A stretch of 42,054 bases of DNA from contig CAMAVD010000014.1 of NCBI GenBank assembly GCA_945861575.1, positions 1 through 42,054 of the forward strand, given 5' to 3'. This DNA is from Akkermansia muciniphila. Its GTDB lineage: Bacteria > Verrucomicrobiota > Verrucomicrobiia > Limisphaerales > UBA11320. The notes under the pieces are model-generated. The model was not told the origin of the DNA, ran no database searches, and saw only the letters and a list, made by a program, of their open reading frames with translations. The position numbers were made by a program, and so were the translations under genes. Shown piece after piece: positions 471 to 34,154 of the stretch; position 1 is the stretch's first letter, and each line of letters starts with the position of its first letter.

Positions 471-672
471 GCCTTTGCGTTACTCCCCGCCACGCAGGCC
501 ACCCCTCGCCAAGACAAGGACTTTATCGCAAAGGCGCGGGACCTGCCGCAAAGACGCAAGCCGGACAAAACCTCATACTAATGAACCGAATCCACGGGCC
601 CGACACATCACCGTTTTCCTCCTGGCCTTCTCGCGCCTCTGCGCCCTGTCCCGCGCCTTTGCGTTACTCCCC
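471..672. repeat. Hairpin repeat element, copy A
   Basis: Two 31-nt arms at 527-557 and 633-663 are inverted repeats (26 of 31 positions pair; the outer 16, CGCAAAGGCGCGGGAC, are perfect) around a 75-nt centre. The sequence GCCTTTGCGTTACTCCCC occurs at both ends (471-488 and 655-672), so the element is bounded by direct repeats about 184 bp apart. The whole unit, including the centre with ACGGGCCC, recurs as copy B at 1234-1430. Just upstream (about 443-470) lies a degenerate form of the 20-bp unit described for 1430-1529. The rest of the 396-784 gap before the next gene holds no supportable gene. Confidence 0.85.
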
Positions 673-784
673 ACCACGCCCTCACCAATCCCAATCACCG
701 TGAAGTCTAAACAAGCAAAATGCTGTCTTGTTTGCGCTTGAAGCGAGCAGGAAAGGCGGCTTCGATTGGTCAGGGAGGTTTTGA

Positions 785-1186
785 ATGAATCAAGAGAACG
801 CTATTGCCTTGATAGTTGTGGACGCCGCCATCGAAGTGCACCGGACCTTAGGTGGCCCTGGGCTTCTAGAAGACCTATATGAAGAAGCGTTGCACGCCGA
901 ACTCTGCATGCGTGGACTGCGAGTGGAACGACAGCAAGTCATCCCAGTCGTCTACAAAGGTCGCAAACTTCGCTACCCGTTGAGATTGGACATGCGAGTA
1001 GAGGGTCTGTTGGCGGTGGAGAACAAGTCAGTCGTGCAATGGAACCCAATCTTCGAGGCCCAGATGCTTACCTACCTCCGTCTAACAAATCTTCGACTCG
1101 GGCTCGTGATCAACTTCGGTGAGCGCTGGGTAAAATCCGGGATACACCGAGTGGTGAACGGCCTACCAGAGAGGCCATCCCCCTAA
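785..1186 (+). CDS. GxxExxY family protein (PD-(D/E)XK nuclease-like)
   Basis: This 133-residue protein matches the GxxExxY family. The naming motif is GLLEDLY at residues 26-32, preceded by the typical AIEVHRTLGGPG segment. Pfam places the family in the PD-(D/E)XK nuclease superfamily, and a matching D...ExK arrangement is visible: Asp69 in LRLDMRVEG, then Glu79 and Lys81 in VENKSV. No biochemical role is established for the family. The start is well supported: GGAGG at 774-778 sits 6 nt before the ATG. Length is normal for the family (about 120-135 aa). The gene stands alone between two copies of a palindromic repeat element (471-672 and 1234-1430), with 20-bp hairpin units beginning 28 bp after its stop codon. 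The arrangement resembles REP elements around their transposase genes, but that link is inference. Confidence 0.9.
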   Translation: MNQENAIALIVVDAAIEVHRTLGGPGLLEDLYEEALHAELCMRGLRVERQQVIPVVYKGRKLRYPLRLDMRVEGLLAVENKSVVQWNPIFEAQMLTYLRLTNLRLGLVINFGERWVKSGIHRVVNGLPERPSP

Positions 1187-1213
1187 CGATCCGGAAGTTG
1201 CTCGCCTTCTCGC

Positions 1214-1233
1214 GCCACCGTGGAACGTGGCAA
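1214..1233 (+). repeat. Single 20-bp palindromic unit
   Basis: The sequence GCCACCGTGGAACGTGGCAA is identical to the last unit of the array at 1510-1529. Its core forms a small hairpin (GCCAC...GTGGC). It lies exactly between TTCTCGCG and a CCTTTGCGTTT sequence, the same junction at which the five-unit array is inserted. Confidence 0.85.
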
Positions 1234-1430
1234 TCCTTTGCGTTTCACCCCACCGCACACACCACCACGCAGGTCACCCCTCGCCAGGATCAAGGAGTTT
1301 ATCGCAAAGACGCGGGACCTGCCGCAGAGACGCAAGCCAGACAAACCCAATACGAATGAACGGAATACACGGGCCCAACCCATCATCGTTTCCCTCCCGG
1401 CCTTCTCGCGCCTCTGCGCCCTGTCCCGCG
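1234..1430. repeat. Hairpin repeat element, copy B
   Basis: This is a second copy of the 471-672 element in the same orientation. The left arm is at 1303-1333. The right arm begins at 1408 and is cut off after CCCGCG at about 1430, where a 100-bp tandem array starts. Sequence shared with copy A includes the CACGCAGG..CACCCCTCGCCA leader, both arms and the central ACGGGCCC segment. The two copies flank the GxxExxY gene. Confidence 0.85.
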
Positions 1431-1529
1431 CCACCGTAGAAAATACCTGGCCACCGTAGAAAATACCTGGCCACGGTAGAAAATACCTGGCCACGGTAGA
1501 ACGTGGCAAGCCACCGTGGAACGTGGCAA
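1430..1529 (+). repeat. Five-unit tandem array of a 20-bp hairpin repeat
   Basis: There are five units of exactly 20 bp (1430-1449, 1450-1469, 1470-1489, 1490-1509, 1510-1529). Units 1-3 read GCCAC(C/G)GTAGAAAATACCTG. Units 4-5 read GCCAC(G/C)GT(A/G)GAACGTGGCAA, which folds as GCCAC...GTGGC. The array splits the sequence that reads CCCGCGCCTTTGCGTTAC in copy A: CCCGCG lies before it and CCTTTGCGTTAC after it. The rest of 1530-1582 holds no gene. Confidence 0.9.
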
Positions 1530-9368: not shown

Positions 9369-9693
9369 GGAGTGCAACAGTGTGCTCTTCAGCCAAGTCA
9401 CCTTCCCTCGGCCATTCAGAGGCTGAATTTCTGAGAGACGAGTCGTCGAGACATTGGACTGAGTGTTGAGCACTATCCAGTAATTGCCCGTCCCCATCAA
9501 GTTCGGAAGCAACTGATTCTCGGCGGGACGCTAAGGGGTCCAGCCTCAATATCTCGCACGGCCACCGTAGAAGGTGGCAAGCCGACGTAGAACGTGGCAA
9601 GCCTTTGGGTTACACCCCCCGCACGGTGCCCCAGATCAGGCAGGCTGTCTTTGGGTGAATTCGACACGCGTGAGGATCGTCTCCACTAGCTCA
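9369..9693. other. Divergent intergenic region between two PSD1 genes
   Basis: These 325 bp separate the leftward PSD1 operon from the rightward one and must contain both promoters if the starts are right. I see no convincing -35/-10 pair. The only structured feature is the two-unit 20-bp repeat at 9561-9600. An open frame runs through the region in front of the plus-strand PSD1 gene, but it begins inside the repeat and does not look like protein. Confidence 0.5.
9561..9600 (+). repeat. Two tandem 20-bp hairpin units
   Basis: Units GCCACCGTAGAAGGTGGCAA (9561-9580) and GCCGACGTAGAACGTGGCAA (9581-9600) are variants of the units at 1214-1233 and 1490-1529. They are followed by GCCTTTGGGTTACACCCC, the same downstream module seen next to the other arrays. 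The preceding CTCGCACG resembles the TCTCGCG seen before the unit at 1214. No full hairpin element is attached here. Confidence 0.85.
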
Positions 9694-13089: not shown

Positions 13090-14509
13090 AGGGCCAGAAC
13101 GTTTTCGCTCCATGAACCGTCGCCAAGCGCTCCGCGACGGGGCGCTTGGTTTCGGAGCCATCGCCCTGACCTCGCTGCTCGCGGACAGAGCCTACGGCGC
13201 CGAGACTGCCTCAAAACGTCCTAGACCCCCTGGGTCTCATCGTCCATCGCGGGCCCGCAACATCATCTTTCTCTACATGGACGGCGGCGTCTCACAAGTG
13301 GATAGCTTCGACCCCAAGCCCCGGCTCAGGCAGGAAGATGGGAAACCCTTTAGAATGAAAATGGAGCCCACCCAGTTCGAAGAGAATGGCGCGGTGCTTG
13401 GCAATCTGTGGGACTTCAAAGCCTATGGACAGAACGGCCTTCCCGTCAGCGATCTCTTCCCCTTTGTCGGCAGCTGTGCAGACGACCTGTGCGTCATCCG
13501 GTCGATGTTCTCCAATTTCTCTGAGCACAATGCCGCCAACTATTTCCTGCACACCGGAAGCGGGATGGCCGGTCGGCCGAGCATGGGTGCCTGGACCACC
13601 TACGGGCTCGGTTCGGAGAATCAAGATCTTCCCGGATATGTGGTGCTGGATGGCGGACTGATTCCCTCGGGGGGTGTGGATTGCTTTGCGTCGGGATTTC
13701 TGCCCGCCAGCTATCAGGCCTCCTTGCTGCAGAACCAGATGCCCGCCCTTGCCAACGTGCAGCCGCTGGAGTCGAATACGCGCCTTCAACAAAACAAGCT
13801 AGCAACCCTGGGAGCGCTGGATGCTGGCACCGTGCAGGCACTCGGTCGGCATGACGCCTTGGAAACCGCCATCGCCAACTACGAACTCGCCTATCGCATG
13901 CAGATGGCCGTCCCTGAGGCAACGGACATCACGGGCGAGACCGCCGCAACCCAGCGGCTCTACGGCCTCGAATCCTCCTTTGTGCACACTCGAAATTACG
14001 GGCGCCAATGCCTGGTCGCACGTCGTCTGATTGAGAGAGGCGTTCGATTCATTGAATTGACCTGCCCCCGTGCTCACGCCGACGCCAGATGGGACGCCCA
14101 CGGAGATCTCAAAAACAACCACTCTCTCAACGCTCGGGCCATCGATCAGCCCATCGCGGCCCTTCTGAAGGATCTGAAAAGTCGCGGCCTTTTGGACGAA
14201 ACGCTGGTCGTCTGGTCGGGGGAGTTTGGGCGTACCCCGTTCGCCCAGGGCCGCGACGGACGCGACCACAATCCCTTCGGCTTCAGCCTCTGGCTCGCGG
14301 GCGGGGGCATCCGAGGCGGCATGTCCTACGGTGCCACCGATGACTACGGCTACAAAGCCGTCGAAAACAAGGTGTCCATCCACGATCTTCATGCCACCAT
14401 GCTCCATCTCCTAGGACTGGACCATGAGCGGCTTACGTTCCGTTTTGGCGGTCGCGACTATCGACTCACCGACGTCCATGGGAATGTGCTGAACGCTGTA
14501 ATCACTTAG
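13079..14509 (+). CDS. DUF1501 domain-containing protein
   Basis: This 476-residue DUF1501 protein has a twin-arginine-like export signal (MNRRQALRDGALGFGAIALT, residues 12-31). The start at 13079 is favoured by a perfect AAGGAG 7 nt upstream, although it adds 11 residues before that signal. Family motifs are [72 protein letters not shown] and the terminal [20 protein letters not shown] and YRLTDVHGN. The reading frame overlaps the end of the PSD1 gene by 11 nt, so translation is very likely coupled. The family has an alkaline phosphatase/sulfatase-like fold, but no activity is established. A Gfo/Idh/MocA gene follows closely. Confidence 0.93.
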   Translation: MFLKGPERFRSMNRRQALRDGALGFGAIALTSLLADRAYGAETASKRPRPPGSHRPSRARNIIFLYMDGGVSQVDSFDPKPRLRQEDGKPFRMKMEPTQFEENGAVLGNLWDFKAYGQNGLPVSDLFPFVGSCADDLCVIRSMFSNFSEHNAANYFLHTGSGMAGRPSMGAWTTYGLGSENQDLPGYVVLDGGLIPSGGVDCFASGFLPASYQASLLQNQMPALANVQPLESNTRLQQNKLATLGALDAGTVQALGRHDALETAIANYELAYRMQMAVPEATDITGETAATQRLYGLESSFVHTRNYGRQCLVARRLIERGVRFIELTCPRAHADARWDAHGDLKNNHSLNARAIDQPIAALLKDLKSRGLLDETLVVWSGEFGRTPFAQGRDGRDHNPFGFSLWLAGGGIRGGMSYGATDDYGYKAVENKVSIHDLHATMLHLLGLDHERLTFRFGGRDYRLTDVHGNVLNAVIT

Positions 14510-19803: not shown

Positions 19804-21262
19804 TCCATCACGATTTTCCATACAGCGCCCCGACTTGGTTTCCCGTCGTGCCATGCTGGCGAAGTGTAGCACCGGCTTCGGCCTCGTTGCCTTGTCCGGA
19901 CTCATGGGAGGCGGCAAATCTTTGGCGGACGCGCCTGCGCGGGAGATCGCTAATCCCTTTGCACCACGCCGGCCCCACTTCACCCCGAAGGTGAAGAGCG
20001 TCATCTTCTGCTTCATGTCCGGCGGCGTCTCACATGTCGATACGTTTGATCCCAAGCCACGCCTGAAGCGGGATCATGGCAAGCCAATGCCCGTGCCTGT
20101 CCGTGCGACCATGTTCAACGAGAACGGCAACATCATGGCCAGCCCATGGGAGTTTCGGAATCACGGAAAGTCTGGGCTGCCCATCAGCGAGCTTTTTCCC
20201 CATATCGCTAGCTGCGCGGATGACCTGGGTGTGATCCGTTCGATGACCAGCATCGCCAATGAACACGCTCAAGGGAACTACTTCATCCATACCGGTTTCT
20301 CATTCGCCGGTTTTCCAAGTGCGGGGGCTTGGACGACCTATGGCCTGGGAAGCGAGAACCAAAACCTGCCCGGATTCGTCGTTCTGAGCAGCGGGGGCGC
20401 CCCTCTGGGCGGTGTGAACATCTTCGGGAATGGATTTTTGCCCGCCGTCCACCAGGCTTCGTTTATTGATCCCAGCCAGAAGGAGCCGTTGCCCAATATC
20501 ACCCCTCGAGAAGCGGACGGGCTTCAGCGCAAGCGCCTTCGATTCATCGACCGATTGGATCAGCGCCATCTCGCCAGCCTTCATGGGGATGAGCAGGTTG
20601 ACTCTGCCATCCGCAACTATGAGATCGCCTACCGCATGCAATCGGCCGTTCCTGACCTGGTCGATCTGCGAGGCGAAAGCGAGGCAACGAAGCAGCTCTA
20701 CGGGATGGATTCGCCCGTCCGGGAAAAAGCCGAGTATGGCCGACAATGCCTGCTCGCTCGGCGGCTCGTTGAACGTGGGGTCCGGTTTGTAGAACTTACG
20801 TGTTTCGCGCGTCCCTCCGACCAGGGTCAAATCGGCAACCCGTGGGATCAACACGGCGGCCTGAAGACGGGACACACGGAAATGGCTTTCCAGGTGGATC
20901 AGCCCATCGCCGGTCTGATCAAGGATCTGAAGGCGCGTGGTCTCTTTGAGGAAACCCTCATCGTTTGGGCCGGCGAGTTCGGTCGCACCCCCTTCGCGCA
21001 GTCGAAAGACGGACGGGACCATAATCCGTTCGGATTCAGCGTCTGGCTAGCGGGCGGCGGAATCAAAGGCGGAACCGCCCATGGAGCCACCGACGAACTG
21101 GGCTACTACGCGGTGGAGAACGTCTGCACTGTCTATGATCTCTGGGCCACGGTGCAGCACCTGCTCGGCCTGGATCATGAACGGCTGACCTACCGTTTCG
21201 GCGGCCGCGACTATCGCCTCACCGACGTCCACGGCCACGTCATCCGACCTATCCTGGCATGA
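19793..21262 (+). CDS. DUF1501 domain-containing protein
   Basis: This 489-residue DUF1501 protein has an RR-type export signal, [20 protein letters not shown] (about residues 15-34). The start at 19793 is supported by AAGGAG 7 nt upstream and by overlap with the PSD1 stop; the in-frame Met at 19685 lies far inside the PSD1 gene. Motifs are [89 protein letters not shown] and [15 protein letters not shown]. The sequence is close in plan to the copy at 13079. It ends the 9694-21262 run; the next gene begins 128 bp later after a stretch with a small GCCGC-TTC-GCGGC hairpin (21358-21370). Confidence 0.93.
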
Positions 21263-31015: not shown

Positions 31016-32433
31016 GCGTGGCCAGCCAATCCGTCCGATCGTCCTCGGGTTTAGGGTGTCAGGGTAGACTGCCGCAGCCCCTCTCGCGCCGCGGCATGCT
31101 CAAGACCAGTGCCACAGGGTTCGCCTGGCTTGCGTGGTCGGCGCTCGCGCAGGGGAAAGCACCGAATGGAGTTTCAGCCCGTCCGCATTTTGCAGCGAAG
31201 GCCAAAAGCGTGATTTTTCTTTTCATGGACGGCGGCGTTTCGCACGTGGATACGTTTGATCCGAAGCCCATGCTCGAGAAGCAAGTAGGCCAGCCATGGA
31301 GCGGCGACCCTACACGCAAATGGGTGAGAAGTCCTTGGAAGTTTTCCTCGCACGGTCAAAGCGGCACGCCCGTGAGCGAGCTCTTTCCTCACATCGCCAG
31401 CTGTGCAGACGACATCGCCGTGATCCGCTCCATGAAAGCGGAGCTCCCCATCCACTCGACCGGAGTATTGCTGCTTCATACCGGGCATAATCTGAGTGGG
31501 CGGCCTAGCCTTGGCTCGTGGATGAACTACGGTCTCGGCAGTGAGAATCAGAATCTTCCCGGCTATGTGGTCCTGAGTTTCGGCCATGTCCCCGTGGGCG
31601 GGATGGAAGCCTTTAGCAGCGGATTCTTGCCGGCAAATCATGAGGCCACGCTTATTCGAGCAGAGGGATCGCCCATCGACAATCTGGTGCCCTCCGATTC
31701 TCAAGCTACCCAGCAGGCCAAGCTCGAGATTCTAGGCCAGCAAGACATGGAGTTCGCGGCTCAACTCGGTGGAAACGACGCGGTGGAGAGCGCGGTCCGA
31801 AACTACGAACTCGCTGCCCGCATGCAGTCATTAGTGCCCGATGTTCTCAACGAAAGTCGGGAGAGCAAATCAGTGCGAGAGCTCTACGGTCTGGACGACC
31901 CCGACCTCAACACCCGGCTCTACGCGCGCCAGATTCTGCGGGCACGGCGACTGGTGGAGAACGGAGTTCGCTTCGTTCAAGTGAATTGCCCGTATGGCTT
32001 ATCGAACGGCACTTGGGACCAACACGGTGGATTGAAAGCGGGTCACGAGAAGAACGCGCGCCAAACAGACCGGGCTGTCGCTGCGCTCATCAAGGACCTG
32101 AAGCAGCGCGGCTTGCTCGACAGCACGCTGGTCCTCTGGGCCGGTGAGTTCGGAAGGACGCCGCACGCCCCCGGGCCTGACGGCCGCGATCATCACTCAG
32201 AAGGCTTCAGCGTGTTTCTGGCCGGAGGGGGGGTCAAAGGAGGCACCGTTTGCGGGGCCACCGATGAATTCGGGATGCATGCCGTCGACCAGGTTGCCGA
32301 CTTTCACGATCTTCACGCCACCGTGCTCCACCTCGCCGGCCTGGATCACGAAAAACTTACCTTCCGCCATGCCGGTCGCGACTATCGCCTGACGGATGTG
32401 CATGGCCACGTCATCCGTTCCATCCTTAGCTAA
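31012..32433 (+). CDS. DUF1501 domain-containing protein
   Basis: This 473-residue DUF1501 protein has an RR-type export signal, LSRRGMLKTSATGFAWLAWS (about residues 24-43). Motifs are [89 protein letters not shown], then DLHATVLHLAGLDHEKLTF and [10 protein letters not shown]. The region corresponding to NPFGF/NHWGF in the paralogues reads HSEGF. The ATG overlaps the PSD1 stop codon (ATGA), so the pair is translationally coupled. It is followed 96 bp later by a sugar-isomerase-like gene. Function unknown beyond its constant association with PSD1. Confidence 0.93.
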   Translation: MSVASQSVRSSSGLGCQGRLPQPLSRRGMLKTSATGFAWLAWSALAQGKAPNGVSARPHFAAKAKSVIFLFMDGGVSHVDTFDPKPMLEKQVGQPWSGDPTRKWVRSPWKFSSHGQSGTPVSELFPHIASCADDIAVIRSMKAELPIHSTGVLLLHTGHNLSGRPSLGSWMNYGLGSENQNLPGYVVLSFGHVPVGGMEAFSSGFLPANHEATLIRAEGSPIDNLVPSDSQATQQAKLEILGQQDMEFAAQLGGNDAVESAVRNYELAARMQSLVPDVLNESRESKSVRELYGLDDPDLNTRLYARQILRARRLVENGVRFVQVNCPYGLSNGTWDQHGGLKAGHEKNARQTDRAVAALIKDLKQRGLLDSTLVLWAGEFGRTPHAPGPDGRDHHSEGFSVFLAGGGVKGGTVCGATDEFGMHAVDQVADFHDLHATVLHLAGLDHEKLTFRHAGRDYRLTDVHGHVIRSILS

Positions 32434-33785: not shown

Positions 33786-33913
33786 AAACACGCATGCGCA
33801 CTCCTGTGAGTCAATGGGGCTACCGACGAAGGTCTTTGAGCACCTCTGAGTTGGGAGGCTCTCAGAATCGCTCGTTGGATCTTGGGGTCGCCCTATTGCT
33901 TTCTGTGTGGCTT

Positions 33914-34001
33914 GCGCCTCTGCGTCACTCCCGCGCCTTTGCGTCGATGTCTGTGGCTGGGGGGGAAGTAACGCAAAGGCGCGGGAAGGACGCCAAGGCG
34001 C
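33914..34001. repeat. Hairpin repeat element, copy C (short-loop, opposite polarity)
   Basis: Arms at 33914-33944 and 33971-34001 are inverted repeats of 31 nt with 27 pairing positions, around a 26-nt loop. Arm sequence is the same family as copies A and B (CGCGCCTTTGCG / CGCAAAGGCGCG), but the order of the arms is reversed. The surrounding 33786-34154 stretch has no supportable gene. Confidence 0.8.
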
Positions 34002-34154
34002 CAGCAAGAAGGAGTGGGGAGCGGAACCCTGTTCAGGAATACCGCAAGCCAGGGGGCGGAGTCGCAAGAAGAGTGTTCAACCTGAAGGGGACAATTGCTC
34101 GGCCCGCTCCAGTACACCTGTCCGATTCTCGGATCTCCGGTTACTCTTGGATAA

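Follow-up and report, generated by a model that had tools for sequence, protein, structure and literature searches.

RAYT (TnpA-REP), the protein associated with REP and REPIN repeats, is an HUH tyrosine transposase that acts on single-stranded, GTAG-tagged hairpins of 20-40 nt (PMC3116915, PMC8266576). The IVS of 23S rRNA that carries the S23/IVP protein is an element of ~430 nt that has inverted repeats at its termini and contains a single small gene, and has been described as selfish; rRNA IVSs occupy particular 23S rRNA helices, and the Coxiella IVS has a 28-bp stem that is cut by RNase III (PMC4990558). These IVSs are the nearest known single-gene hairpin elements, and their gene encodes a four-helix bundle unrelated to the protein considered here.

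The locus described here, in which a gene of the GxxExxY family is framed by hairpin repeats, resembles the REP/REPIN and RAYT systems in its small extragenic palindromes, its many gene-less copies, the gene associated with the repeats and the co-evolution of protein and repeat. It differs from them in its protein, a predicted PD-(D/E)XK nuclease, and in its ends, which are arrays of units conserved over their spacers. The gene beside the repeats is not an HUH Y1 transposase but a PF13366 member with a predicted PD-(D/E)XK fold, and CRCRRAG-type units 8-11 nt apart take the place of GTAG/CGTC-tagged palindromes of 20-40 nt. The likeness to REP elements flanking a RAYT gene, drawn in an earlier note on this DNA, holds only as a working analogy, given the differences in enzyme fold, in repeat architecture and in likely chemistry.

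With insertion sequences and MITEs, the locus shares terminal inverted repeats, internal-deletion derivatives and occupied and empty sites. In contrast to them, it has one nuclease of ~130 aa and no DDE, HUH or serine/tyrosine recombinase, its ends are iterated arrays instead of a single terminal repeat, and the single site that was inspected for it, a filled/empty pair at the gcvPA-gcvPB junction, shows no target-site duplication. PD-(D/E)XK homing endonucleases are also small, lone nuclease genes that behave as selfish units, but they have one conserved host site, whereas GxxExxY elements have conserved ends of their own and varying insertion sites. In the open-access literature we found no paper linking GxxExxY to repeats, and an earlier description elsewhere is possible; the papers that mention PF13366, TIGR04256 or the array spellings are unrelated as judged by their titles and abstracts.

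The GxxExxY protein and the window locus

The window, the whole stretch of 42,054 nt that was analysed, is contig C14 of a genome of 5.2 Mb in 377 contigs; its features are compiled in Table 1. The window protein scores 112 bits against PF13366/PDDEXK_3 (cut-off 22) and 118 bits against TIGR04256 GxxExxY (cut-off 35), both above the curated cut-offs, and carries the GxxExxY motif together with the D and ExK residues. Across 69 aligned sequences, D69 and E79 are invariant, with a conservation of 90% or more for K81, Q93 and Y97; the invariant or near-invariant set includes H19, G26xxE29xxY32, D69, E79xK81, Q93 and Y97. The active-site-like residues of the window protein are D69, E79-x-K81 and Q93-x3-Y97, and D, ExK and QxxxY form the signature of RecB-family nucleases. 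Its AlphaFold2 model (pLDDT 93) has as nearest solved folds SSO0001, which we take to be a Cas4, LHK-Exo and lambda exonuclease, with modest E values of 0.006-0.02 and Foldseek probabilities of 0.91-1.00 for the closest hits (0.87-1.00 over the nearest folds as a whole). Based on these fold matches and on the D/ExK/QxxxY residues, which are common to the RecB family, we read GxxExxY as a predicted minimal RecB/Cas4-like PD-(D/E)XK nuclease. The protein differs from Cas4 in its size, with 133 residues against ~202 in SSO0001, and a sequence search of the PDB returned no convincing solved homologue.

The gene is present in 52 of 115 genomes sampled from the phylum, with up to 12 copies per genome, and its distribution is very wide but patchy, extending over more than 20 phyla, archaea included. 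Three other identities were ruled out: a defence gene (the PADLOC profiles have no match at E<=1), a phage cargo gene (zero matches in 50,697 phage records) and a known RNA family (Rfam has no match in eight loci of the GxxExxY-array kind). Eight plasmid records carry GxxExxY, none of them mobilizable. The neighbours identified from sequence include gatA/gatB, gcvPA/gcvPB and ABC-transporter genes, and no cas genes were noticed among these.

Table 1. Coordinates of the features of the GxxExxY locus and its repeats in the window.
Feature	Positions	Strand	Description
GxxExxY gene	785-1186	+	133-aa ORF; PF13366/TIGR04256 matches; predicted minimal RecB/Cas4-like PD-(D/E)XK nuclease
Upstream hairpin element	471-680	+	Arms 524-567 / 623-666 (77% complementary); CGCAAAG/CGCGGGA units; repeat search
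Outer border repeat GCCTTTGCGTTACTCCCC	471-488 and 655-672		In upstream hairpin element
Leader, GxxExxY gene and start of 3' arm (block)	671-1216	+	95.4% identical copy on contig C374 (L002); blastn
Decayed 3' arm (CTTCTCGCGCC...)	1200-1248	+	Interrupted by CCACCGTGGAACGTGGCAA; intact counterpart in L002 is CTTGCGCCTTTGCGCCCTGTCCCGCGCCTTTGCG; comparison with L002 and L006
Downstream hairpin copy	1262-1432	+	Direct orientation; 89% identical to 487-657 over 172 bp
Solo hairpin	33910-34005	.	Same family as the gene-flanking hairpins; arms 86% complementary

The gene does lie between two same-orientation copies of a hairpin element, as the earlier note had reported, and the cassette recurs in the genome. 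The recurring block comprises 547 bp including the gene, and more hairpin copies are found on ~10 contigs; the arm core CGCAAAGNCGCGGGAC has 24 sites genome-wide at <=1 mismatch. Since both the block and the hairpins occur elsewhere in the genome, the arrangement in the window is not due to chance. Partial further copies lie at two contig ends (C158, 89%; C18, 95%), and contig C31 keeps the last ~50 nt of the gene and an arm, nothing more. The genes of the window and of C374 differ by 11 synonymous and 3 non-synonymous codons (dN 0.010, dS 0.120), a dN/dS of ~0.08 that indicates purifying selection; judging by these codon differences, selection on the protein therefore seems to have continued as the unit multiplied.

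Both hairpins of the window are composite. At most of the other loci, the gene sits within a single pair of inverted arrays and not between two complete hairpins, which makes the window copy a rearranged example. Two more full-length GxxExxY genes in the same genome belong to other subfamilies, L001 with CACAGAG-type repeats on both sides and L004 with CGCGAAT-type repeats in inverted orientation; given this difference, distinct GxxExxY subfamilies bear distinct repeats.

Other repeats are present in the window. A tandem 20-nt repeat, GCCACCGTAGAAAATACCTG / GCCACCGTGGAACGTGGCAA, abuts the downstream hairpin at 1430-1529 and has a related copy at 9561-9613; it also breaks the 3' arm near 1214-1244, and represents another dispersed repeat family. 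Three diverged copies of gene-like repeats (13238-14502, 19976-21255 and 31186-32426) are presumably DUF1501/DUF1549-type genes, which we take to be common in Verrucomicrobiota and Planctomycetota.

Inverted arrays framing GxxExxY genes

The GxxExxY gene is usually framed by inverted arrays, and this framing is specific compared with control genes. Our phylum set consisted of 40 loci from 40 of the 52 gene-bearing genomes plus four loci of the window's own genome, of which one was dropped for having too little flank, leaving 43 scored. The score was that of the best inverted repeat between the 300-bp flanks on either side of the HMM domain, whose limits were used because gene limits set by start codons hid several left arms; 715 mock intervals of equal length, taken within the same loci, served as controls. 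The median score was 24 for the GxxExxY loci and 11 for the mock intervals. Beyond the 99th percentile of the mock intervals fell 38 of the 43 phylum loci (p=4e-25) and 52 of 78 named loci obtained by scanning GTDB species genomes in more than 20 phyla (p=6e-35), these values referring to loci picked by the best profile score per genome or by subfamily pattern, in genomes many of which are MAGs or drafts, and to arms partly defined by the search. The named loci include Planctomycetota, Bacteroidota, Chloroflexota, Cyanobacteria, Acidobacteriota, several proteobacterial classes, Omnitrophota, Spirochaetota, archaea and others; GPGLLES-type proteins are over-represented among them because the search used a closer subfamily.

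By a second statistic, the presence of iterated units in both arms, 90 of 124 loci were positive against 5 of 354 controls. Two control families, likewise of small genes and taken from genomes of the same set, gave no locus above the cut in the same test: Uma2 (0/10) and ParE (0/29), the latter added because Uma2 was too rare. The earlier note had suggested looking for enrichment of the repeats beside GxxExxY genes, and strong enrichment of inverted arrays was found. The association is not specific to hairpins of the CGCAAAGGCGCGG type; each subfamily has its own motif, which co-varies with the protein. Some named loci (e.g. L081, L093) have no arrays by the measures used. Framing by direct repeats was rejected as a general rule, not being clearly enriched (p=0.10 in the 43 loci, 0.03 in the 78).

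A typical arm is an array of 3-4 units of 7 nt each, 8-11 nt apart. The pooled unit consensus is C-(A/G)-C-(A/G)-(G/A)-A-G, with variants such as CACGAAA, CGCGAAT, CGCAAAG, CACAGAT, CAGGAAA and CGCCAAG, and the units run from the outside towards the gene in 82 of 90 loci. Arms of four units with a spacing of 10-11-10 occur in L097, L118, L128, L129 and L154, which are mostly from Bacteroidota and Ignavibacteria (L129 is from Anaerolineales), while most other arms have three units with a spacing of 8-10. Of the 64 loci with three or more units in each arm, 55 have identical left and right spacing vectors; shuffling the arms among loci 5000 times gives an expectation of 9.7 and a maximum of 19. 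The varying spacer lengths argue against simple tandem slippage. When the arms were aligned solely by the outer unit and its adjoining outer bases, and the remaining units were compared, identity between arms was 82% in units, 51% in spacers and 29% in the inner flank (Wilcoxon 1.6e-8). What is kept is thus the units and not base-pairing as such, a pattern that would be expected of protein-binding sites.

The motif follows the protein lineage. Over 90 loci, protein distance and motif distance are correlated with a Mantel r=0.62, a value reached in 0 of 2000 permutations, and the correlation persists once the 3-mer composition of the locus is removed; base composition itself showed no relation to the motif in these 90 loci. 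The correlation also holds within a single phylum (r=0.48, 0/2000 permutations) and is weaker in the named set dominated by GPGLLES (r=0.16, 48/2000). We regard this covariation as support for recognition and not as proof of it, since joint inheritance of arms and gene could contribute and could by itself give such a correlation.

Occupied sites, empty sites and gene-less hairpins

In 30 loci of one family that span the gatA-gatB junction, 29 of them readable, several states of the same site were found. The junction is empty or nearly so (0-26 bp) in L203, L204, L209, L214, L216-L219 and L224; it holds a gene-less hairpin in L200, L202, L213 and L220, and less clearly in L201 and L211; it holds an internally deleted gene in L205 and a full element in L199, L206, L210, L212, L215, L223, L225, L226 and L228. 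L207 and L208 have hairpins of another motif, GTAGCGAG, and L222 has an IVP-type gene (PF05635) between arrays of the GTAGCGAG type. Within one genus, two species have a filled gcvPA-gcvPB junction and three have an empty one. Its empty form is a stop/start overlap (...GTGCTGTGAAATT...), and the filled form keeps both reading frames. Most filled intervals at these two junctions measure ~440-600 bp and are taken up by the ~400-bp gene and its arms; no DDE, HUH, serine or tyrosine transposase was found inside them. Internal deletions are present at L205, C31 and L301, the last being a tandem of three copies of a single element, of which one is complete and two carry internal deletions. Occupied and empty states in relatives and multiple copies per genome are features of mobile elements in general, and both are seen here.

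Certain operon junctions are reused by elements of differing motif families, as if they were landing sites. This is the case for gatA-gatB (L039, L041, L045, L058, L199-L228), which is also used by a different gene, for the junction of an ABC ATPase and its permease (L049, L064, L067, L070) and for gcvPA-gcvPB (L229-L232). Further unrelated short arrays (ATACGCAGTACGAAATACGGA; GTTCAGAGTTAGGAGTTCAGGG) are found at the gcvPA-gcvPB junction, in L238 and L233 upstream of gcvPB and in L234 and L237, and are possibly yet other element families.

Arrays without a gene of their own are concentrated in genomes that have the gene. Triple CACAGAG-type arrays occur in 30 of the 115 genomes, of which 28 carry GxxExxY; by gene status, they are found in 28/52 genomes with the gene and 2/63 without it (p=2e-10), with 280 and 7 arrays, respectively. 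The co-occurrence gives p=0.0015 when gene-poor families are left out and is not significant at the family level (p=0.22). For triple CACGAAA arrays, every one of the 15 genomes that contain them also has the gene (hypergeometric ~2e-6). Genomes with the repeats and no such gene, which in the earlier note's terms would have spoken against a link if numerous, are therefore rare (2/30 for CACAGAG, 0/15 for CACGAAA). In three genomes the arms of the resident gene have the middle units CACAAAA, CACGAAA and CACCAAA, and the resident spelling is found in 32 of 50 solo arrays of these genomes (chi-square p=8e-6, permutation p<5e-5), a bias that would follow if the solo hairpins descend from the resident element or owe their movement to it.

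In genome G004, a gene-less hairpin of ~125 bp has been amplified. In 17 aligned copies, conservation falls sharply outside the left array, at TTAGC/CACAGAG, and less sharply at the right border. This genome has ~84 CACAGAG arrays, but this spelling is absent from the arms of all five GxxExxY genes detected in it; the mover has therefore been lost, is unassembled or acts across spellings.

The 23S-rRNA-IVP four-helix-bundle genes (PF05635) of the phylum have iterated inverted arrays of their own in 21 of 30 loci (L241-L270), for example CGTGAATCGTGAATC, AGAACGGAGAACGG and GTAGCGAG. The IVP gene of L222 (1710-2072) sits in gatA-gatB, where another genome of the same genus has a GxxExxY element.

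A candidate nuclease-driven element and its alternatives

Our preferred reading, with a probability of roughly 0.6, is that GxxExxY genes are the gene-carrying form of small mobile elements whose protein binds and cuts its own arrays. We infer binding, cutting and mobility from the array anatomy, its specificity against controls, its breadth, the conservation of units, the covariation, the site states and the within-genome copies, all of which are directly observed. Against this reading stand the lack of a visible target-site duplication at the one clean filled/empty site, the non-significant co-occurrence of gene and arrays at the family level, the mismatch in spelling between arrays and gene arms in G004, and the named loci without arrays. 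The earlier proposal that the protein acts on the hairpins gains partial support from the enrichment and from the rarity of gene-free arrays, and it is a prediction that the protein would cut or move them.

Under this reading, the element would be a unit of ~450-600 bp with 3-4 motif copies at each end, ~8-11 bp or about one helical turn apart, and with the two arrays facing each other. Units about one turn apart would let several GxxExxY subunits, probably forming a multimer, line up on the DNA and draw the ends together; the nuclease would then nick, cut, trim or resect the DNA at the ends. An element without an integrase may insert by being freed, with or without its gene, after which host repair or replication would copy it into intergenic gaps that tolerate it. 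The hairpins that have no gene would be internal-deletion derivatives mobilised in trans.

The main rival mechanism, which we consider unlikely, is homing: the nuclease would cut an uninterrupted hairpin, in which the arrays are close, and repair would copy the gene into the loop, the gene-bearing copy being immune because the gene splits the site and the solo hairpins spreading by another route. Hairpin-only, full and deleted forms at the one gatA-gatB site are consistent with this, as is a single gene between two arrays that would jointly form one site, in an element that has no integrase and whose arms could serve as homology. However, the internally deleted genes indicate a direction from full to gene-less, different motif families and even a different gene (L222) are found at the same site, and the amplified gene-less families need another mover.

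It is less probable that the arrays serve regulation instead of mobility, as operators or processing sites that GxxExxY binds in autoregulation or maintains for the host, with ordinary duplication spreading the copies. Arrays on both sides of the gene, within operons, and with units conserved over spacers would suit such a role, but it does not account for sites that are empty in related genomes, for the amplification of gene-less hairpins, for the very wide but patchy distribution or for internal deletions that keep both arms.

A passenger role, in which a RAYT-like or host enzyme moves the hairpins and GxxExxY is cargo captured once and kept, seems more doubtful still. The motif co-varies with the GxxExxY lineage, arrays are nearly absent from gene-free genomes and the protein is under purifying selection between copies, even though the element does not encode an integrase and a different gene, that of the IVP four-helix protein, is similarly framed. 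Chance, or ordinary intergenic repeats or terminators beside a small gene, can practically be dismissed, for although unrelated intergenic repeats exist in the window and at several other loci, the control families (ParE 0/29, Uma2 0/10), the mock intervals and the identical arm spacing refute it.

On the reading that we favour, GxxExxY probably drives a small mobile element of a kind not described before, which is present in more than 20 phyla. A broader proposal, to which we would give slightly less than even odds, is that GxxExxY and IVP-like genes represent two families of transposase-less, single-gene mobile elements with array ends and shared sites, of which GxxExxY spans bacteria and archaea and has a nuclease that would read its own unit code and mobilise both the element and its gene-less hairpins. 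If this is true, the motif-protein pairs would constitute a large natural set of new DNA-binding specificities. That the orphan IVP family is framed in the same way suggests that this lifestyle is general and has been overlooked.

For GxxExxY, a small orphan family of wide occurrence, our results offer a concrete, testable role and, with it, an explanation for an extensive class of the hairpin repeats found here. They point to an element whose mobility would depend on a single exonuclease-type nuclease, without any known transposase, and to many natural pairs of protein and motif whose specificity may be read and tested.
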